A stretch of DNA of 64,000 bases from Porphyrobacter sp. LM 6 (lineage in GTDB: Bacteria; Pseudomonadota; Alphaproteobacteria; Sphingomonadales; Sphingomonadaceae), in the NCBI RefSeq assembly GCF_001720465.1, contig NZ_CP017113.1, positions 372,001-436,000 on the forward strand, given 5' to 3'. The notes beneath the pieces were generated by a model that made no database searches, was not told where the DNA came from, and saw only the letters and a program-made list of their open reading frames with translations. Positions 14,794-53,012 of the stretch are shown in pieces (the first letter of the stretch is position 1; each line of letters begins with the position of its first letter). The position numbers were made by a program, and so were the translations under genes.

Positions 14794-16074
14794 ATGGACA
14801 AACTCATCATTCGTGGCGGCAACCGCCTTTCCGGCTCGATCCCGATTTCAGGCGCGAAGAATGCGGCGCTGACGCTCATTCCTTGCGCGCTTTTGACCGA
14901 GGAGCCTTTGACGCTGCGCAACCTGCCGCGGCTGGCGGATATCGACGGGTTCCAGCACCTGATGAACCAGTTCGGGGTGACGACGGTCATCCAGGGCACG
15001 CGGCCCGAGGATTTCGGCCGGGTGATGAGCCTCGAGGCGACCCGCATCACCTCCAACGTCGCGCCCTATGATCTGGTGCGCAAGATGCGCGCCTCGATCC
15101 TGGTGCTCGGCCCGATGCTGGCGCGCAGCGGCGAGGCGACCGTGTCGATGCCCGGTGGCTGCGCGATCGGCAACCGCCCGATCGACCTGCACCTCAAGGC
15201 GCTCGAGGCCTTTGGCGCGAAGGTCGAGCTGGCGGCCGGCTATGTCCGCGCGATCCAGCCCGATGGCGGGATGCCCGGCGGCGATTTCGATTTCCCGGTG
15301 GTGTCGGTCGGCGCGACCGAGAACGCGCTGATGGCGGCGGTGCTGGCAAACGGCACCAGCCGCTTGTTCAACGCCGCGCGCGAGCCGGAAATCGTCGATC
15401 TGTGCAATATGCTGGTGGCGATGGGCGCGGAGATCGAAGGGATCGGCACCTCCAACCTCACCATTCACGGCGTGAAGCGTCTGCACGGCGCGACCTACCG
15501 CGTTATGCCCGATCGCATCGAGGCCGGCTCCTATGCCTGCGCGGCGGCGATCACCGGCGGCGAGGTGCGGCTGGAAGGCGCGCGGGCGGACGAGATGATG
15601 GCGACGATCCATGCGCTTCAAGCCATCGGCTGCGACGTGTCGTGGGATGCCAAGAGCGTCACCGTCGGCGCGAGCGGGCCGCTGAAGGCCACCAACCTCA
15701 CCACCGCGCCCTATCCGGGCCTTGCCACCGACATGCAGGCGCAGCTGATGGCGCTTCTGTGCAAGGCCGAAGGCGCGAGCGTGCTCAAGGAAACGATCTT
15801 CGAAAACCGCTTCATGCACGTGCCGGAACTGGCGCGCATGGGGGCGGACATCACCACCGAAGGCCGCACCGCGATCGTCAAGGGTGTCGACCGCCTGACC
15901 GGCGCCGAAGTGATGGCGACCGACCTGCGCGCCTCGATGAGCCTCGTGATCGCCGCGCTGGCGGCCGAGGGCGAGACCACCGTGCGCCGCCTCTACCACC
16001 TCGACCGCGGTTACGAGCGGCTGGAAGAAAAGCTCCAGCTGGTGGGTGCAGATATCGAGCGGGTGGACGACTAG
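14794..16074 (+). CDS. murA: UDP-N-acetylglucosamine 1-carboxyvinyltransferase
   Basis: First committed step of peptidoglycan synthesis, transferring enolpyruvate from PEP to UDP-GlcNAc; target of fosfomycin. The 426-residue protein has the N-terminal [24 protein letters not shown]. The active-site loop [17 protein letters not shown] contains the catalytic Cys at residue 123, and the C-terminus has [20 protein letters not shown]. The catalytic Cys is present, so fosfomycin sensitivity at the target is not excluded. Start ATG 14794 has AAGGCG upstream. Confidence 0.97.
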
Positions 16075-16077
16075 GTC

Positions 16078-16112
16078 GGTCCAGACCCCCGTTAGGCCGG
16101 TCTAGACCCCCG
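16078..16112. repeat. tandem direct repeat, two 14-bp copies
   Basis: GGTCCAGACCCCCG (16078-16091) and GGTCTAGACCCCCG (16099-16112), one mismatch, spaced by 21 bp. They lie between the murA stop and the end of the RHH gene, next to a parS site. Function unknown. Confidence 0.5.
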
Positions 16113-16389
16113 CTTGCCCCGCTTCATGGCGATGTTCCACGTGGAACATTGCACTATCGTGATGCAGCACCAGCCACACGCGTATCGCGCTCGCCAGGCC
16201 GGGCGGGGTGGGGGATTTGATCCGTTCGGCATCGATGCGCGCAACCAGCGCGGCAATCGCCAACCCCTCGCGCGCGGCGGCGGCCTTGAGCATCTCCCAG
16301 AACAGCGGTTCAAGGCTGATCGAGGTCTGGTGGCCCGCAATCGTCAGCGAACGCTTGACCGGCGGGTGGTAGGGGGAGGGTGTCTCCAT
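16102..16389 (-). CDS. ribbon-helix-helix domain protein
   Basis: A 95-residue protein whose first 70 residues match the RHH_4-type ribbon-helix-helix family: KRSLTIAGHQTSISLEP strand, then WEMLKAAAAREGLAIAALV and LASAIRVWLVLHH helices. It is likely a small DNA-binding protein; no target is known. The C-terminal tail from residue 81 (MFHVEH) is the translation of a perfect parS palindrome, so the last 15 residues may exist to accommodate that site. ATG 16389 follows GGGGAG. It converges with murA. Confidence 0.78.
   Translation of the reverse strand: METPSPYHPPVKRSLTIAGHQTSISLEPLFWEMLKAAAAREGLAIAALVARIDAERIKSPTPPGLASAIRVWLVLHHDSAMFHVEHRHEAGQAGV
16133..16148. promoter_or_regulatory. parS: parS site (distal, left of oriC)
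   Basis: Perfect 16-bp palindrome TGTTCCACGTGGAACA, embedded in the 18-bp form with flanking A/T. It is identical to the clustered copies at 47.8-51.2 kb but 26 kb to the other side of the presumed origin. It encodes MFHVEH in the RHH gene. Confidence 0.88.
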
Positions 16390-42396: not shown

Positions 42397-43413
42397 ATGC
42401 CCGGTCCGCTTCTCGATACGCTCAAAGGTGTCCGTCAGGACCGTGCCCCCGTTTGGCTGATGCGCCAGGCCGGGCGTTATCTGCCCGAATATCGCGAACT
42501 GCGCGCCGAAAAGGGTGGGTTTCTCGAACTCGTCTATGACAGCGAGGCCGCGGCCGAGATCACCGTGCAGCCGCTGCGGCGCTTCGGGTTTGATGGCGCG
42601 ATCCTGTTTTCGGATATCCTGATCGTGCCGCACGCGATGGGGCAGGGCTTGCAGTTCCTCGCTGGGGAAGGCCCGCACCTCTCGCCGACGCTGCTGGAAG
42701 TCGGGCTGGACAGTTTCACCCTCGCTTTCGAGCGGTTCGAGCCGGTTTACGAAACCGTGCGCCTCACCCGCTCGATGATCGGGCCGGAAGTGACGATGCT
42801 CGGCTTTGCGGGTAGCCCCTGGACGGTCGCGACCTACATGATTGCAGGCGAAGGTTCGAAGGATCAGGGCCCGGCGCGGCTGCTGGCCTATCGCGATCCG
42901 GCGCATCTTCAGGCAATTATCGACGCGATCGTCGATGTCTCGGTGACCTATCTGCGCGGCCAGATCGATGCCGGCGCCGAAGCGGTGCAGCTGTTCGATA
43001 GCTGGGCCGGAAGCCTAGCGCCCGACCAGTTTGAAAAGTGGGTTGTGGCGCCCAACGCGGCGATCACGGCGAAGCTAAAGGAAACCCATCCCGATACCCC
43101 GGTGATCGGTTTCCCCAAGGGCGCGGGCGCGAAGCTGCCGGCCTATGCGCGCGAGACGGGCGTGGACGCAGTCGGCCTCGACGAGACGCTCGATCCTGCC
43201 TGGGCGCACGCGAGCCTGCCGGAAGGCATGCCGGTGCAGGGCAATCTTGATCCGCTGCTGGTCGAAGCCGGCGGTCCGGCGCTGCCCGAGCGCGTCAAGA
43301 CGATCATCCGGGCCTTCGAGGATCGTCCGCATGTCTTCAATCTCGGCCACGGAATCGGCCAGCACACGCCGATTTCCCACGTCGAGGATCTGCTCGCCGC
43401 GCTCAGGGGCTAA
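42397..43413 (+). CDS. hemE: uroporphyrinogen decarboxylase
   Basis: Decarboxylates uroporphyrinogen III to coproporphyrinogen III in haem synthesis. The 338-residue enzyme has the N-terminal signature PVWLMRQAGRYLPEYRE, ILFSDILIVPHAMGQGL with the catalytic Asp, GFAGSPWTVATYMI and VFNLGHGIGQHTP. Start ATG 42397 follows AAAGGAA. hemJ starts 5 bp after its stop. Confidence 0.97.
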   Translation: MPGPLLDTLKGVRQDRAPVWLMRQAGRYLPEYRELRAEKGGFLELVYDSEAAAEITVQPLRRFGFDGAILFSDILIVPHAMGQGLQFLAGEGPHLSPTLLEVGLDSFTLAFERFEPVYETVRLTRSMIGPEVTMLGFAGSPWTVATYMIAGEGSKDQGPARLLAYRDPAHLQAIIDAIVDVSVTYLRGQIDAGAEAVQLFDSWAGSLAPDQFEKWVVAPNAAITAKLKETHPDTPVIGFPKGAGAKLPAYARETGVDAVGLDETLDPAWAHASLPEGMPVQGNLDPLLVEAGGPALPERVKTIIRAFEDRPHVFNLGHGIGQHTPISHVEDLLAALRG

Positions 43414-45781: not shown

Positions 45782-46183
45782 TCAGCCCTTCGCTGCGGCG
45801 AGCTGGGCGCCCATCATTTCCCAGACCTTGTTGATCGCCTTCAGCGGGCGCACCATCACTTTGAAATCGATGATTTTCCCTTCGGAATTGAAGCGGATGA
45901 TGTCGATCCCGTTGATGCTGATCCCGTCCAGCTCGGTGACGAATTCGAGCATCATCTCGTCGCCGTCCACCAGTTCGCGGACATAGTGGAAGCTGTCGTT
46001 CCCCAGCACTTTTGCGGCGGCGAGGAGGTAGGCCATCACCACCGGCTTGCCCGCCTGCGGGGTGTGCACCACGGGCGAATGGAACACGCAATCATCCGCG
46101 ATCAGCGCCGAAAGCTGCGCCGGATCGCCTTCGCTTTCCATATAGGCGTGCCAGCGGGCGAGGCCGGGGTGCACCGCGCTCAT
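45782..46183 (-). CDS. SnoaL-like/NTF2-fold protein
   Basis: A 133-residue protein of the nuclear transport factor 2 / SnoaL-like fold (HPGLARWHAYMESEGDPAQLSALIADDCVFHSPVV, FVTELDGISINGIDIIRFNSEGKIIDFKVMVRP). Members are ketosteroid-isomerase-like small enzymes or ligand binders; activity is unknown. It overlaps the dienelactone hydrolase gene upstream on the strand by 4 nt, so the two are coupled. Confidence 0.82.
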   Translation of the reverse strand: MSAVHPGLARWHAYMESEGDPAQLSALIADDCVFHSPVVHTPQAGKPVVMAYLLAAAKVLGNDSFHYVRELVDGDEMMLEFVTELDGISINGIDIIRFNSEGKIIDFKVMVRPLKAINKVWEMMGAQLAAAKG

Positions 46184-46878
46184 CCCAGATGCTCGGCGAA
46201 GAAGGCCGCAGTGCGGCTGTCGGCGAGGTTGGCGGCTTCCTCGTGGCGGCGCTTGCCGGTTTCGGTCGCAAAGCCGTGGTCGAGCCCTTCGTAATCGTGG
46301 AGCGTCACCTTGGGGTGATCATCGAGCCCGGCATGCATCGCTTCCTGTGTTTCACGTGGAACAAAGCCGTCAGCCGTGGGGATGTGCAGCATCAGCGGAT
46401 GCGCGATCGCGTGCTTTTCGCCCAGCAGCCCGTCGATCCCGACCCCGTAATAGCCCACGCTTGCGTCGATATCGGTGCGCGCGGCGGTCATGAACGCCAG
46501 ACGACCGCCGAGGCAGTATCCCACGCAGCCGACCTTGGCGACGCCGAGCGTGCGGCGGATGTGGTGGATGGTTGCCTCGATATCGCGGATGCCGGCGTCT
46601 TGGTTGAACTTGCCCATCAGATCGAGCGCCTGGGTAAACTCCGCCTCGACATCGGGATCGAGCGAGGTTGCCGGCTGCAAGCGCCAGAACAGGTCTGGCG
46701 CGACCGCCAGATAGCCCTCGGCGGCCAGCTTGTCGCACTTCTGGCGGATGCCGGGGTTCACCCCGAAGATCTCCTGAATGACGATAATCGCCCCGCGCGC
46801 GGTTCCGGCGGGCTGCGCGACATAGGCGCCGAAGCTGGCATCACCTTCGAGCGTGGGGATCGTCGTGTTGAGGCTCAT
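46180..46878 (-). CDS. dienelactone hydrolase family protein
   Basis: A 232-residue alpha/beta hydrolase. The nucleophile elbow VGCVGYCLGGRLAF has Cys, as in dienelactone hydrolase, together with IVIQEIFGVNPGIRQKCDKLA and GLDHGFA with the catalytic His. The DNA encoding residues about 172-177 (PRET region) contains a parS-like palindrome. No chlorocatechol pathway genes are near, so a general carboxyl-esterase role is more likely. Confidence 0.9.
   Translation of the reverse strand: MSLNTTIPTLEGDASFGAYVAQPAGTARGAIIVIQEIFGVNPGIRQKCDKLAAEGYLAVAPDLFWRLQPATSLDPDVEAEFTQALDLMGKFNQDAGIRDIEATIHHIRRTLGVAKVGCVGYCLGGRLAFMTAARTDIDASVGYYGVGIDGLLGEKHAIAHPLMLHIPTADGFVPRETQEAMHAGLDDHPKVTLHDYEGLDHGFATETGKRRHEEAANLADSRTAAFFAEHLG
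46348..46363. promoter_or_regulatory. parS: variant parS site inside dienelactone hydrolase gene
   Basis: TGTTTCACGTGGAACA, one base from the perfect palindrome of the cluster. It is a hybrid of the two common parS forms (TGTTTCAC... and ...GTGGAACA). The flanking A/T of the other copies is absent. Confidence 0.65.
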
Positions 46879-46989
46879 GGCGGGGACTCTCTCTCATGGG
46901 TTTCGTGGTCGCGTGCGGTCTATCTCTTGCCTTGCCCGCCTGCCAAGCGCAAATGAACGGGTCACAGGCGGGACAGGAGAGGCACGCCC

Positions 46990-47244
46990 ATGAAGATCAC
47001 CATCGAAGTCGATTGCACCCCCGAAGAAGCGCGCAACTTCCTCGGCCTGCCCGACGTGTCAGCGGCCAATTCGATCTATGTCGACAATATCGCCAAGGCG
47101 ATGCGCGGCGTCTCAAATCCCGAACAATTACAACAATATGCGTCGGCCTTGGCGCCGATGGGGCAGGTTGGCCTGAAGATGTTCCAGAGCTTTGTCGAAA
47201 GCGGGATGAAGGCGGCTTCGGGCGCAGGCAAGAAGAGCGACTAA
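46990..47244 (+). CDS. DUF6489-like small protein
   Basis: An 84-residue soluble protein beginning MKITIEVDCTPEEARNFLGLPDV, the pattern of a small family (DUF6489) found next to mnmE in Sphingomonadales. The remainder is helical (LKMFQSFVESGMKAASGAG). No function known. It lies 9 bp upstream of mnmE. Confidence 0.72.
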   Translation: MKITIEVDCTPEEARNFLGLPDVSAANSIYVDNIAKAMRGVSNPEQLQQYASALAPMGQVGLKMFQSFVESGMKAASGAGKKSD

Positions 47245-47253
47245 ACGCTTTCG

Positions 47254-48549
47254 ATGACGCTTGCCCCGACCATTTTCGCGCTGTCGAGCGGTGCGCCGCC
47301 GGCCGGGATCGGGGTGATCCGGATCTCTGGAGCCGGAGCGGGGGCGGCGCTGGCGGCGCTCGCCGGGCGCCTGCCCGAACCGCGGCGCGCTTCGCTGGCG
47401 CGGCTGCGCGATGCGGAGGGGGCGCTGCTCGACGAGGCGCTGGTGCTGTGGTTCCCCGGGCCGAATACCGCGACGGGCGAGGACCTCGCTGAATTGCACT
47501 GCCATGGCGGCCGCGCGGTGATCGCTGCGGTGGAGGCCGCGCTTGCCGCGGTGCCCGACACCCGCCGCGCCGAACCGGGGGAGTTCACCCGCCGCGCCTT
47601 CGCCAATGGCCGGATCGACCTCGCCGAAGCCGAGGGGCTGGGCGACCTGCTCTCCGCAGAGACCGAGCTGCAACGCGCCGCCGCGCTCGCCAATGCGGGC
47701 GGGGCGCTCTCGCGGCAGGTGGAGCGTTGGCGTGATGAGGTGCTGCGCCTCTCGGCCGAAGTCGAAGCCGCGCTCGACTTCTCCGACGAGGAAGATGCCG
47801 CCGATCTCGAAAAATGTTCCACGTGGAACATTTTGCCGCTGGCGAGTGAATTGGTGGAGTGGCTCGCCCGTCCGCGTTCGGAGCGGTTGGGGGAGGGGGT
47901 CCGCATCGTGCTGGCCGGGCCGCCCAATGCCGGGAAATCGACACTGTTCAACGCTCTGGTCGAGAGCGAGGCGGCTATCACTTCGCCCATCGCCGGGACG
48001 ACCCGCGATGTGATCGAACGCTCGGTCGCGATTGCCGGGGTGCCGTTCACCTTCGTTGATACGGCGGGGCTGAGGGAGGTCGAGGACGGGTCTAGCGGCG
48101 ACCAAATCGAGGCTATCGGCATTGATCGCGCCAAGACCGAGCTCGCCCGCGCCGATGTGGTGTTGTGGCTCGGGCCAGAGGGCGAGGGACCGGCGGATGC
48201 CTGGGAAATCGCCGCGCAGGCCGACCGGGCGGACTTCGCGCCCAAGCAGGCGGCGCGGTTTACGCTCTCGGCGGTGACGGGGGTGGGGGTTGCGGAACTC
48301 AAGCACGCGCTGGCCGATGCGGCCCGTGCGGCGCTCCCCAAGCCGGGCGAGGCGGCGCTCAACGCCCGGCAGCACGCGCGGCTCTGCGAAGCGGCTGAGG
48401 CCCTGGAGGCGGCGCAGGCCTTGCGCGACCCGCTGCTCGTCGCGGAGGAACTCCGCCGTGCGCGGCTCGCCTTCGACCGGCTGATCGGCCGCGCCACCAC
48501 CGAGGATATGCTCGACGCGCTGTTCGGCCGGTTCTGCATCGGTAAGTGA
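47254..48549 (+). CDS. mnmE: tRNA modification GTPase MnmE
   Basis: With MnmG it installs the cmnm5 group on U34 of certain tRNAs. The 431-residue protein has the N-terminal formyl-THF-binding domain (TIFALSSGAPPAGIGVIRISG, ELHCHGGRAVI). A helical domain is interrupted by the GTPase: G1 GPPNAGKSTLFN at residues 222-233, G2 GTTRDV and G3 DTAGLRE. It ends with the C-terminal FCIGK. Residues 188-193 (CSTWNI), in the linker before the G domain, are encoded by a parS palindrome. Confidence 0.96.
   Translation: MTLAPTIFALSSGAPPAGIGVIRISGAGAGAALAALAGRLPEPRRASLARLRDAEGALLDEALVLWFPGPNTATGEDLAELHCHGGRAVIAAVEAALAAVPDTRRAEPGEFTRRAFANGRIDLAEAEGLGDLLSAETELQRAAALANAGGALSRQVERWRDEVLRLSAEVEAALDFSDEEDAADLEKCSTWNILPLASELVEWLARPRSERLGEGVRIVLAGPPNAGKSTLFNALVESEAAITSPIAGTTRDVIERSVAIAGVPFTFVDTAGLREVEDGSSGDQIEAIGIDRAKTELARADVVLWLGPEGEGPADAWEIAAQADRADFAPKQAARFTLSAVTGVGVAELKHALADAARAALPKPGEAALNARQHARLCEAAEALEAAQALRDPLLVAEELRRARLAFDRLIGRATTEDMLDALFGRFCIGK
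47815..47830. promoter_or_regulatory. parS: parS site inside mnmE
   Basis: Perfect TGTTCCACGTGGAACA, flanked by AAAA and TTTT, read in mnmE as CSTWNI. Low GC flanks stand out from the surrounding coding sequence. Confidence 0.92.
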
Positions 48550-48577
48550 GTGGGGCAAGTGAGCAAATCGCCAAAAA

Positions 48578-48593
48578 TGTTCCACGTGGAACA
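48578..48593. promoter_or_regulatory. parS: parS site, mnmE-mnmG intergenic, copy 1
   Basis: Perfect TGTTCCACGTGGAACA, 28 bp after the mnmE stop. First of three sites in the 181-bp gap before mnmG. Confidence 0.93.
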
Positions 48594-48615
48594 TTAGTTT
48601 CAAATCGCATACCAA

Positions 48616-48631
48616 TGTTCCACGTGGAACA
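48616..48631. promoter_or_regulatory. parS: parS site, mnmE-mnmG intergenic, copy 2
   Basis: Perfect palindrome, start 38 bp after the start of copy 1, within CAATG...CATTG flanks that extend the symmetry. Confidence 0.93.
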
Positions 48632-48669
48632 TTGGTTCACAAATCAGGACTGATTTTGCCCCGCCGGAA

Positions 48670-48685
48670 TGTTCCACGTGGAACA
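48670..48685. promoter_or_regulatory. parS: parS site, mnmE-mnmG intergenic, copy 3
   Basis: Perfect palindrome, 54 bp after copy 2 and 45 bp before the mnmG start codon. Confidence 0.93.
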
Positions 48686-48730
48686 TTTTGGATGACGCAG
48701 CGCCGCGCGCACCCTATTTGCGGCCCCATC

Positions 48731-50581
48731 ATGCACCTGTTCGATGTCCTCGTTATCGGCGGCGGTCACGCCGGGGTCGAAGCCGCTTGTGCTTCGGCGC
48801 GGATGGGTGCGCGCACGGCGCTGGTGAGTTTTGACCTCGACGCTATCGGCGCGATGAGCTGCAATCCGGCCATCGGGGGCCTCGGCAAGGGCCATCTGGT
48901 GCGCGAGGTCGATGCGCTCGATGGGGTAATCGGCCGCGCTGCCGATGCGGGCGCAATCCATTACCGGATGCTCAACCGCTCCAAGGGCAGCGCCGTGTGG
49001 GGCCCGCGTGTGCAGGCCGACCGGGTACGCTTCAAGGCGGCGGTGCAGGCGATGGTCCGCGCACAGCCCAATCTGACGCTGGTGCAGGGCGAGGCGGCGG
49101 CGCTGAAGCTCGAAGGCGGCAAGGTCGCGGGTCTCGAATTGGCTGACGGCACACTGCTCGAAGCATCACGCGTGGTGCTCTGCACCGGGACATTCCTGGG
49201 CGGGGTGCTGTTCCGCGGGGAGGAGCGCTTCGAAGGCGGGCGCATCGGCGAGAATGCTGCCAAGCGCCTCGCCCAGCAGTTGCGCGGGGCCGACCTGCCA
49301 ATGGCGCGCCTCAAGACCGGCACGCCCCCGCGGCTTGACGGGCGCACGATCAACTGGGCGGTGCTCGAAGAGCAGTCGTCGGACGGTGAGGCGTGGACCA
49401 TGTCCCCGTTGACGCCCGCCCGCGTCAATCCCCAGGTCTTTTGCGCCATCACCCGCACCACCCAGGCGGGCCACGATGCGATCCGCGCCAATCTCCACCG
49501 CTCACCGCTGTTCTCCGGCGCGATTGCGGCGGCGGGGCCGCGCTATTGCCCCTCGATCGAGGACAAGATCCACCGCTTCGGCGACCGCGAGGGCCATCAG
49601 GTCTTTCTCGAACCCGAAGGGCTGGATTCGCACCTCGTCTATCCCAACGGCATCAGCACCTCGCTCCCTGTCGATGTGCAGGAGACCGTCGTGCGGACCA
49701 TGCCGGGCTGCGAGCGCGTGGTGATCGTGCAGCCGGGCTATGCGGTGGAATATGACCATATCGATCCGCGCGCGCTGACGCCGGATTTGCAGGTGCGCGC
49801 GATCCCGGGCCTCTATTGCGCGGGGCAGATCAACGGCACCACCGGATACGAGGAAGCCGCCGCGCAGGGTCTTGTCGCGGGGCTGGAAGCGGCGGCAGCG
49901 GCGCTCGGCACGGCTGCGCCCGCGCTTGACCGTGCGAACAGCTACATTGCGGTGATGGTGGACGATCTGACGCTTCAGGGCGTGTCGGAGCCTTACCGGA
50001 TGCTCACCGCCCGCGCCGAATACCGCCTGCGCCTGCGCGCCAATAATGCGGCGACGCGTCTTACCGGCCTCGGCGTCGAAGCGGGCTGCATCGGTGCGGA
50101 GCGTCGCGCCTGGTGGGAACGCCGCGAAGAGACGCGCAAAATGTTCCACGTGGAACATTCTCGGAAGGTCCACGCCCGCGAGCTTGCCGATCTCGGTCTG
50201 CCGGTGCGACGCGATCACGGCGAAAAGTCGATCGCCGAGTGGCTGCGCTATGACGGGGTGACCCCCGAGGCGCTCGCCCCGTGGCTGGCTGAAGTGACCG
50301 CGCGCGATCCGCTGCTCGCCGAGGAAATGGCCGAGGATGCTGCCTACGCGCCCTATCTCGCGCGGCAGGATGCCGAGCTGCGCGATCTGCGCGCGAGCGA
50401 GGCGCTGCCGCTGACGGCGGACTTCCCCTATAGCGAGGTTCCGGGCCTCTCTAACGAGATGGTCGAACGCCTGACCAAGGCTGCACCGGGCACGCTTGCG
50501 GCGGCGGGGCGGGTGCCGGGTGTCACGCCGGCGGCGCTTTCGGCGCTGCTGGTCCACGCACGGCGCAGGATCGCGGCATGA
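48731..50581 (+). CDS. mnmG: tRNA uridine-5-carboxymethylaminomethyl modification enzyme MnmG
   Basis: FAD- and NADH-dependent partner of MnmE. The 616 residues start with the dinucleotide-binding [23 protein letters not shown]. They contain [61 protein letters not shown] and [18 protein letters not shown], and the C-terminal GidA-associated domain. Residues 471-476 (MFHVEH) are a translated parS site between the FAD and C-terminal regions. No good Shine-Dalgarno precedes ATG 48731, but family alignment supports it. Confidence 0.96.
50142..50157. promoter_or_regulatory. parS: parS site inside mnmG
   Basis: Perfect TGTTCCACGTGGAACA, encoded as MFHVEH at residues 471-476 of MnmG. Confidence 0.92.
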
Positions 50582-51204
50582 TCACGACCGAAGACGAAGC
50601 CCGCGCCTATGTCGCCGGGCTGACCGATGTGGAGGGCATGGCGCGGCTTGAGGCCTTTGCCGCGCTGGTGCTGGAGGAGAACCAGCAGCAAAACCTCATC
50701 GCCAAGGCGACCGAGCCGCATATCTGGCAGCGCCACATCGCTGATTCGGCGCAGCTCACGCAAAATGTTCCACGTGGAACATTTTCGGCGAATGCGGGCG
50801 GGCCGTGGCTCGATCTCGGCAGCGGGCCGGGCTTTCCCGGGCTGGTGATCGCGGCGCTCCATCCGAATATGCCGGTGGTGCTGGTCGAATCGCGGGCGCG
50901 GCGCGTGGAGTTCCTCAACCGCTGCATCGCCGCGCTCGATCTGCGTAAATGCCGCGTGGAAGGCCAGCGGCTGGAGCGGGTTGCGCCCTTTGCCGCCCGC
51001 GCCATTTCGGCACGCGCTTTTGCTCCGCTTCCAAAACTCCTCGCCTTGTCCGCACCCTTCTCCACAAGGCAGACCGTCTATGTCTTGCCCAAGGGCCGCT
51101 CTGCGGCGCAGGAATTGGGGGAGCTAAAGCCTTCGATTCGAGAAATGTTCCACGTGGAACATTCCTTGACCGATCCCGAGGCGGGGATCATTGTGAAGGC
51201 CTGA
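50578..51204 (+). CDS. rsmG: 16S rRNA (guanine-527 N7) methyltransferase RsmG
   Basis: Methylates G527 of 16S rRNA; its loss gives low-level streptomycin resistance. The 208-residue protein has [26 protein letters not shown], the SAM motif [32 protein letters not shown] and [13 protein letters not shown]. Two parS palindromes are inside the gene: residues 63-69 (NVPRGTF), just before the SAM motif, and 190-195 (MFHVEH) near the C-terminus. Start overlaps the mnmG stop by 4 nt. Confidence 0.95.
50766..50781. promoter_or_regulatory. parS: parS site inside rsmG, 5' copy
   Basis: Perfect palindrome, read in the third frame as NVPRGTF, flanked by AAAA and TTTT. Confidence 0.92.
51146..51161. promoter_or_regulatory. 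parS: parS site inside rsmG, 3' copy
   Basis: Perfect palindrome, read as MFHVEH. It is 101 bp upstream of the parA start codon, the closest copy to parAB. Confidence 0.92.
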
Positions 51205-51261: not shown

Positions 51262-52038
51262 ATGCTGACCATCGCGATCGCCAACCAGAAGGGCGGAGTG
51301 GGCAAGACCACCACCGCGATCAACATCGCCACCGCGATGGCCGCAACCGGCTGGCGCACGCTGCTGATCGACCTCGATCCGCAGGGCAATGCTTCGACCG
51401 GGCTGGGCGTGCATTCCTCGGCGCGCGAGGTTTCGAGCTATGATCTGCTGGTCGACGAGGTGTCGCTCGATTCGGCAATCGTGCCGACCGCGATTCCGCG
51501 CCTCGATATCATTCCGGCGACAGTCGATCTCTCGGGCGCCGAGGTCGAGCTGGTTGCGGTCGAGGGCCGCACCCACCGTCTGCACAAGGCGCTGTCGGCG
51601 CATGGCGGGCATGATATCTGCTTCATCGATTGCCCGCCGTCGCTCGGGCTGCTGACGCTGAACGCGCTGTGCGCCGCCGATACGCTGCTGGTGCCGCTCC
51701 AGTGCGAGTTTTTCGCGCTCGAAGGGCTGAGCCAGCTGCTTCAGACGGTCGATCAGGTGCAGCAGCGCTTCAACCCGCAGCTCGGCATCATTGGCGTGGC
51801 GCTGACCATGTTCGATCGTCGCAACCGCCTGACCGATCAGGTCTCGGACGACGTGCGCGATTGCCTGGGCAAGCTGGTGTTCGATACGGTGATCCCGCGC
51901 AACGTGCGCCTGTCCGAAGCGCCGAGCCACGGGCTTCCGGCGCTGATCTATGACCAGCATTGCACCGGCAGCCGCGCCTATATGGCGCTGGCCCGCGAGC
52001 TGATCGGGCGCTTTCCCGCAGAAAGACAGGCGGCATGA
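51262..52038 (+). CDS. parA: chromosome partitioning ATPase ParA
   Basis: Walker-type ATPase that forms a DNA-bound gradient and drives ParB-parS segregation. The 258 residues start LTIAIANQKGGVGKTTTAINIATAM (deviant Walker A with the signature Lys). They have LLIDLDPQGNASTGLG, FIDCPPSLGLLTLNAL (Walker B) and the C-terminal IPRNVRLSEAPSHGLPALIYD typical of chromosomal ParA. ATG 51262 follows GGAAGGA. parB overlaps its stop (ATGA). Confidence 0.97.
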   Translation: MLTIAIANQKGGVGKTTTAINIATAMAATGWRTLLIDLDPQGNASTGLGVHSSAREVSSYDLLVDEVSLDSAIVPTAIPRLDIIPATVDLSGAEVELVAVEGRTHRLHKALSAHGGHDICFIDCPPSLGLLTLNALCAADTLLVPLQCEFFALEGLSQLLQTVDQVQQRFNPQLGIIGVALTMFDRRNRLTDQVSDDVRDCLGKLVFDTVIPRNVRLSEAPSHGLPALIYDQHCTGSRAYMALARELIGRFPAERQAA

Positions 52039-53012
52039 CCGATAATTCAACGCAACCGATTGATATTACGAATATTTCTCGCGGCGGCGAGGATAAGCCG
52101 CGGCGTCTGGGCCGGGGGCTTGGTGCCTTGCTGGGTGAGACCCGCCGCGAAGAACCGCTGGTGCGGCGCGAAGAGCCGGCGGCCGAAAGCGCGCCTGCTG
52201 CGCCCGGTGCATCGCCCCTGCGGATGCTGGCGCTCGCAAGCATCAGGCCGCTGCCGGGCAACCCGCGCAAGCATTTCGACGATGCCGCGCTGGACGAGCT
52301 TGCCTCGTCGATTTCTGCGCGCGGGGTGATCCAGCCGATCATCGTCCGCCCGCACCCGGAAGGCACGGGATATCAACTGGTTGCCGGTGAACGCCGGTGG
52401 CGCGCGGCGCAGCGGGCACGGCTGCATGAAATCCCCGCGCTGGTCCGCAACCTTTCCGAACGCGAGGTGATGGCGCTGGCGCTGATCGAGAACCTCCAGC
52501 GCGAGGATCTCAACCCCGTCGAAGAAGCGCGCGCCTATCACCGCCTGGCCGATACCGAGGGCATGACCCAGGTCGAGATCGCCAAGCTGGTCGACAAGTC
52601 GCGCAGCCACATCGCCAATATGCACCGGCTGATGAGCCTGCCCGAGCCGGTGCTCGAGCTGGTCGAGCAGGGCAAGCTCTCCTTCGGTCACGCCAAGACG
52701 CTGATCGGCCATGAAGACGCCCGCCAACTCGCCGAAATCGCGGTTAGCGAAGGGCTTTCGGTGCGCGATCTCGAAACGCTGACGCGCAAGCCGATCGTGC
52801 GCGAGGCCAAGCCGGTGACCGGCGCGACCTACACGCAAGGCACGGAAAATGCAGACATTGTCGCCGTGCAGCAGCACCTCGAGGAGTTCCTCGGGCTGGG
52901 GGTGAAGATCAAGCCCGAAGCCGATCCGCGCAAGGGCACGATCACGATCCGCTACACCACGCTCGATCAGCTCGATCTGCTGTGCCAGCGCCTGACCGGC
53001 GGCGAATTCTGA
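52035..53012 (+). CDS. parB: chromosome partitioning protein ParB
   Basis: CTP-binding clamp that loads at parS and spreads along DNA. The 325 residues begin with a variable N-terminus and a basic RRLGRGLGALLGE, the typical ParA-interacting motif. The CTP-binding N-domain contains LPGNPRKHFDD, GVIQPIIVRP, LVAGERRWRAAQRA and ENLQREDLNPVEEA. The helix-turn-helix follows (TQVEIAKLVDKSRSHIANMHRLM), then the C-terminal dimerisation domain. The eight parS sites upstream within 6 kb are its expected targets. Confidence 0.97.
   Translation: MTDNSTQPIDITNISRGGEDKPRRLGRGLGALLGETRREEPLVRREEPAAESAPAAPGASPLRMLALASIRPLPGNPRKHFDDAALDELASSISARGVIQPIIVRPHPEGTGYQLVAGERRWRAAQRARLHEIPALVRNLSEREVMALALIENLQREDLNPVEEARAYHRLADTEGMTQVEIAKLVDKSRSHIANMHRLMSLPEPVLELVEQGKLSFGHAKTLIGHEDARQLAEIAVSEGLSVRDLETLTRKPIVREAKPVTGATYTQGTENADIVAVQQHLEEFLGLGVKIKPEADPRKGTITIRYTTLDQLDLLCQRLTGGEF

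Follow-up and report, generated by a model that had tools for sequence, protein, structure and literature searches.

We analyzed a 64,000-nucleotide stretch of the Porphyrobacter sp. LM 6 genome (hereafter the window; positions 372001-436000 of the 2,979,257-bp single contig) that carries a dense cluster of parS-type palindromes ahead of the genes parA and parB. Palindromes of the same kind recur over the whole chromosome, mostly with an 11-bp repeat on one side, and we discuss here what these scattered sites may be.

The parS cluster beside parA-parB

Seven perfect copies of the 16-bp parS consensus palindrome TGTTCCACGTGGAACA and a one-mismatch copy, TGTTTCACGTGGAACA, all lie within positions 46348-51161, ahead of parA (51262-52038, + strand) and parB (52035-53012, + strand), which encodes a 325-aa protein with ParB_N, HTH_ParB and ParB_C domains. 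The window holds nine matches to TGTTCCACGTGGAACA at up to three mismatches, as compared with a mean of 0.11 in 100 shuffles. The one-mismatch copy (46348-46363), one letter away from the CC/GG form of the core, sits within a dienelactone-hydrolase-family gene (46180-46878, - strand); its counterpart in the related genome G003, TGTTTCACGTGAAACA, lies at matching spacing (position 954949). Perfect copies are read in frame within mnmE (47254-48549, +; site at 47815-47830, peptide CSTWNI), within mnmG (48731-50581, +, start picked by eye; site at 50142-50157, MFHVEH) and twice within rsmG, also called gidB (50578-51204, +; sites at 50766-50781, NVPRGT, and 51146-51161, MFHVEH). Three more occupy the gap between mnmE and mnmG (48578-48593, 48616-48631 and 48670-48685). 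The related genome G003 has a nearly identical eight-site layout, and G109 has eight cluster sites with one at a different position (spacings compared by eye, unaligned).

With its 16-bp palindrome, parAB alongside and sites in both the genes and the gaps of mnmE-mnmG-rsmG, the cluster resembles known chromosomal ParABS systems. It can fairly be read as the usual origin-proximal centromere with about eight parS, at which ParB binding is predicted. An initial annotation of this DNA had correctly given all eight positions, the parA-parB genes that come after them and an 18-bp extended form of the palindrome (ATGTTCCACGTGGAACAT, present in 7/7 perfect cluster copies); it had overlooked a further perfect copy at 16133 in the same window.

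Perfect copies are scattered over the chromosome

Genome-wide, TGTTCCACGTGGAACA occurs perfectly 52 times, with seven copies in the cluster and 45 elsewhere, and its reversed pattern does not occur; at up to three mismatches there are 68 matches, versus 16 for the reversed pattern. The outer A/T of the 18-bp form occurs in 86 of the 104 arms of the 52 perfect copies. Nine variant or decayed sites (L066-L074, one or two mismatches) bring the scattered class to 54.

We assumed the origin, by synteny, to lie at the start of hemE (42397-43413, +), a gene that serves as an origin marker (PMC6650430). Counted in fifths from the origin to the far side, the 45 perfect scattered sites number 12, 10, 7, 8 and 8 and fit a uniform distribution (Kolmogorov-Smirnov [KS] p = 0.64), as do the 46 scattered sites of G003 (13, 9, 10, 9 and 5; KS p = 0.31, genome length rounded). 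Their spacing is more even than chance, as judged against 10,000 random draws by both the smallest gap (11,564 bp, P = 0.0005) and the coefficient of variation of the gaps (0.71, P = 0.007). With the origin assumed at hemE, 45/52 perfect sites lie outside the cluster and over the whole chromosome, unlike the vast majority of known parS, which are reported from an origin domain of 20% of the chromosome (PMC7022226), and unlike the up to 22 parS near the origin cited for Streptomyces coelicolor and Listeria innocua (PMC5815017).

The initial annotation had viewed the cluster as a possible strong ParB loading hub, a fair view given the eight-site layouts of G003 and G109, and one against which an even scatter of the motif would speak. 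Both patterns are present: the cluster is dense, with eight sites in 4.8 kb, yet the 45 other perfect copies, one per ~65 kb, are evenly spread, and the hub is therefore only one portion, dense and near the origin, of a set that spans the chromosome. The scattered sites also favor one gene arrangement, being flanked by convergent genes in 24/45 cases, compared with 12/57 gene pairs in the window (Fisher p = 1.2e-4) and 3/33 gene pairs away from sites in the fetched loci, all as called by a crude open reading frame (ORF) caller.

A one-sided 11-bp array accompanies most scattered sites

At 39 of the 45 perfect scattered sites, an array of at least two 11-bp units (GGGGTCTARR type, within 114 bp) runs outward from the core on one side. 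No site has it on both sides, and the eight cluster sites lack it altogether. The scattered sites without an array are L033, L041, L045, L046, L059 and L063, and clear 11-bp units stand ~200-260 bp away from L045 and L063. Three or more units are found at 5/9 variant or decayed sites.

The period is shared by relatives. C[AT][AG] triplets recur in helical phase, at a spacing of 11 bp, 84 times here (44 sites examined), 69 times in G003, 8 in G034, 5 in G109 and once in G066, against maxima of 4, 3, 1, 2 and 0, respectively, at the other spacings between 7 and 15. Sites with phased triplets amount to 49/54 here, 36/46 in G003, 2/3 in G024 and 2/3 in G065, as compared with 7/320 control stretches. 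By eye, the unit varies by species, being of the GGGGTCTGRA type in G003, of the GCGGGCAAAGC type in G034 and of other types elsewhere. The array has the look of a conserved companion to parS. No comparable array is described in the open-licence parS literature on Erythrobacter, Porphyrobacter and Sphingomonadales, or on dispersed or convergent sites, among the matches listed.

High site counts mark one clade, and many sites keep their places

The pattern TGTTNCACGTGNAACA occurs 7-69 times in 48 of 114 genus genomes (this one included), six times in one and 0-5 times in 65, and its reversed pattern is absent from all 114. In a FastTree phylogeny of ParA and ParB from 70 species, all 44 high-count species placed form one clade (support 0.90), and G036, with three sites, adjoins it (support 1.0 for both together). 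The tree covers 70/114 genomes; it leaves out 40 of the 66 low-count genomes and four high-count ones, namely G080, G007 and G022, which gave weak ParB matches only, and G105, whose ParB is in pieces. Elsewhere such counts are rare: in other genera of the order, 270 of the 272 genomes sampled have 0-5 copies and the remaining two have 7 and 10, and of 381 genomes sampled from the class beyond the family, 14 have seven or more. The remaining 367 have 0-6, in line with the handful of sites that the initial annotation ascribed to most alphaproteobacteria.

Two or more matches to the array pattern GGGGTCTA (up to two mismatches), a narrow test that overlooks species with other units, were found in 30/48 high-count genomes; of the 66 other genus genomes, one has two and the other 65 have fewer. 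An exact scan of named genomes for the composite of parS and array returned 44 loci, titled Porphyrobacter, Erythrobacteraceae metagenome-assembled genomes (MAGs) or MAGs labelled only Sphingomonadales or Alphaproteobacteria; 27 of these share a flank with a locus of this genome.

We compared positions using 80 sites from six species. G003 contributed all its 46 scattered sites, G109 contributed 14 (drawn from the first 25 of its 34 sites), G034 10, G066 four, and G024 and G065 three each. Of these, 57 fall no more than 250 bp from where one of the 54 scattered sites here would be predicted (G034 10/10, G066 3/4, G024 2/3, G065 3/3, G003 29/46, G109 10/14), and 39/54 sites here are matched at least once. 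In same-place pairs, ungapped 20-bp flanks are 41% identical, versus 32% in random pairs, and the core is 88% identical. The array stands on the same side in all 29 same-place pairs that can be scored, the other 28 of the 57 being unscorable.

Core letters and ParB differ together in this species

The core is of the CC/GG form in 52/56 sites here, in the cluster and among the scattered sites alike. The 80 sampled sites of relatives read TT/AA in 69 cases, mixed in 10 and CC/GG in one; G003 is TT/AA in 45/46, and mixed cores (G034 7/10, G024 1/3, G065 1/3) make the letters non-uniform within some species. Encoded peptides track the letters: at the rsmG positions where this genome reads NVPRGT and MFHVEH, the further high-count species whose parAB regions were scanned read NVSRET (G003, G109 and G011) and MFHVKH (the same three and G034). 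The switch of core letters is species-wide.

The ParB of this species has residues found in none of 69 aligned relatives, among them H197, K221 and T222; position 221 is K here alone and R in 69 of the 70. Under our mapping to Caulobacter numbering, a constant offset of 17 (K171-S172-R173 = K188-S189-R190, G201 = G218), K221 corresponds to R204, which is described as a conserved parS contact (PMC7383237). The link between K221 and the core letters is a correlation only.

Six places in the genome match ParB_N, parB included. Three of the other five were searched by family and yielded two RepB-type genes beside recombinase genes and one DNA methylase, with no dedicated Noc-like protein among them; the last two adjoin the RepB pairs.

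A possible chromosome-wide class of parS

Together, about sixty predicted sites span the whole chromosome. Most adjoin the 11-base repeat on one side, and many recur at matching positions in related species. Their presence, spacing, same-place conservation, fixed polarity, restriction to one clade and species-wide core switch can be read directly from the genomes. From sequence alone we infer, with a probability of roughly 0.55, that the scattered sites form a second class of parS, spread chromosome-wide, which would load ParB along the chromosome arms. The host ParB would bind them and load over the full length of the chromosome as cytidine triphosphate (CTP) clamps. These would load or hold a partner on the arms, at promoter-free positions under positive supercoiling; SMC-ScpAB, whose ScpB is kept, is the most likely candidate. 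The phased array would bend DNA or bind a second protein, giving each site a direction. In E. coli and yeast, the DNA between convergent genes is reported to accumulate positive supercoils (PMC8360656), which may be the reason for the placement of sites there. That work also describes cohesin at such positions, which serves as an analogy only. More tentatively, one clade may have moved from a point to a diffuse centromere, with directional bipartite parS loading ParB (and SMC) on both arms and with ParB and its sites switching letters together in one lineage.

Several observations weigh against this reading. Fewer than two matches to the narrow GGGGTCTA pattern are found in 18/48 high-count genomes, and in three of these, G034, G109 and G066, a phased array in other letters marks only 5/10, 4/14 and 1/4 of the sampled sites, respectively. 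No partner was found for 23/80 sampled sites and 15/54 sites here, and about half of the scattered sites lie outside convergent gene pairs (13 tandem, three divergent, four within an ORF, one unresolved). Array side shows no association with replication-fork direction (22 ahead and 18 behind in 40 loci). ScpB, matched in 109/114 genus genomes (all except G083, G093, G096, G105 and G117), does not separate high- from low-count species; the same presence in both groups led us to reject condensin loss as the reason that the sites are tolerated. Pseudomonas ParB uses CC/GG sites, and K221 is no more than correlated with these letters. Finally, extra parS clusters on the arms are reported to lower fitness in Caulobacter (PMC5815017), so this clade should differ in its use of ParB or SMC.

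Two known systems also place ParB-family proteins at many chromosomal sites. Noc-binding sites (NBS) are numerous and spread over the Bacillus chromosome. The cores here have parS letters and read TGTTNCACGTGNAACA, unlike NBS, which is described as departing from parS at positions 1 and 6 (PMC7383237), and they come with no Noc-like paralogue among the ParB_N places searched by family. Pseudomonas ParB is reported to bind half-parS at many chromosomal places (PMC7022226); those are 7-mers, whereas the sites here, where ParB occupancy is predicted, are full 16-mers retained at the same places and accompanied by an array. Among the matches listed, no open-licence paper describes scattered chromosome-wide parS in this clade. 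The scattered sites depart from the rule that parS stays near the origin. With at least 44 species that have 7-69 sites, many of them fixed in position, the clade allows this rule to be tested by comparison and provides a natural example of joint change in ParB and about 50 sites.

Alternative explanations

If ParB does occupy the scattered sites, it might serve division control as Noc does in Bacillus, keeping the division machinery off unsegregated DNA in a state resembling that before the duplication of ParB and Noc. The whole-chromosome layout recalls that of Noc, Noc and ParB are relatives, and the searched ParB_N places (two RepB-type, one DNA methylase) offered no second protein for the task. 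We consider this unlikely: the sites are not depleted opposite the assumed origin, with 8/45 in the outer fifth, and at R190 and G218 (Caulobacter 173 and 201) the ParB here keeps the residues typical of ParB. It is less probable still that another DNA-binding protein sharing the palindrome occupies them. Such a protein would fit the absence of the array from the parAB cluster, ParB binding being itself a prediction, but cluster and scattered sites have the CC/GG letters in common and, alone among the 70 species, this one has a ParB altered at a parS contact.

We give a similarly low weight to the idea that converging genes use the element to terminate transcription, with the C-rich array as a Rho loading stretch, the palindrome as a hairpin and the parS letters incidental. 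The convergent placement suits it, and at 33/40 resolved loci the neighboring gene on the side of the array is directed toward it (variants included; nine loci within genes and five without a side omitted). Arm pairing beyond the core exceeded shuffles in the sets from this genome (reached by 29/2000), G109 (8) and the named genomes (9) but not in G003 (1034/2000) or G034 (1325/2000), and we rejected hairpin arms as a general feature. A hairpin, moreover, would not preserve 16 exact letters, and the G109 arrays are not C-rich by eye. Least probable of all is a functionless mobile or copied palindromic repeat of the REP/RPE kind. Array units and some spacers are common among copies here, and longer palindromic repeats with a parS core exist elsewhere (G760, below), but different species carry sites at the same places, with fixed polarity and flanks that are close to random, and copies here agree in no more than one or two bases directly beside the core. 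The exact composite has no match in viral contigs, which also speaks against a viral origin.

The scattered element of the window and minor observations

The perfect copy at 16133-16148 belongs to the scattered class, and G003 has a site at the corresponding place (L188). It lies in the 3' end of a small ribbon-helix-helix (RHH_4) ORF (16102-16389, -) that converges on a murA-like gene of the EPSP synthase family (14794-16074, +). By eye, the final codons of the ORF pass through parS (AMFHVEHRHEAGQAGV) and its TAG stop lies inside the one-sided array (16072-16122, limits approximate), whose G-rich strand reads away from parS on the - strand.

In-frame parS also occur in other enzyme genes, of the levansucrase family (L041:2001-2016) and aminotransferase class V (L045:2001-2016), besides the rsmG copies at 50766 and 51146; which residues they encode depends on the parS letters of the species (E/K; P and G vs S and E). 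The RepB-type ParB_N genes beside recombinase genes lie at ~1.13 and ~1.82 Mb (L017, L018, L020, L021), each with a second ParB_N-matching ORF. Among the matches listed, 11-bp arrays near 967,900, 878,610, 2,285,930 and 2,315,500 have no parS-type core nearby.

Two genomes with still higher counts, G760 and G578, were rejected as instances of the same phenomenon, the ten loci fetched from them showing a longer repeat and tight groups. G760, a 0.9-Mb alphaproteobacterial genome, has 156 parS-type 16-mers; in three of five fetched loci (L270, L272, L274, L276, L278) the core lies within a longer palindrome of the CAAACATAAA..TTTATGTTTG type, like a parS-cored repeat family. G578, of 1.8 Mb, has 79 copies, often in tight groups and some at a steady 37-bp step (L269, L271, L273, L275, L277).

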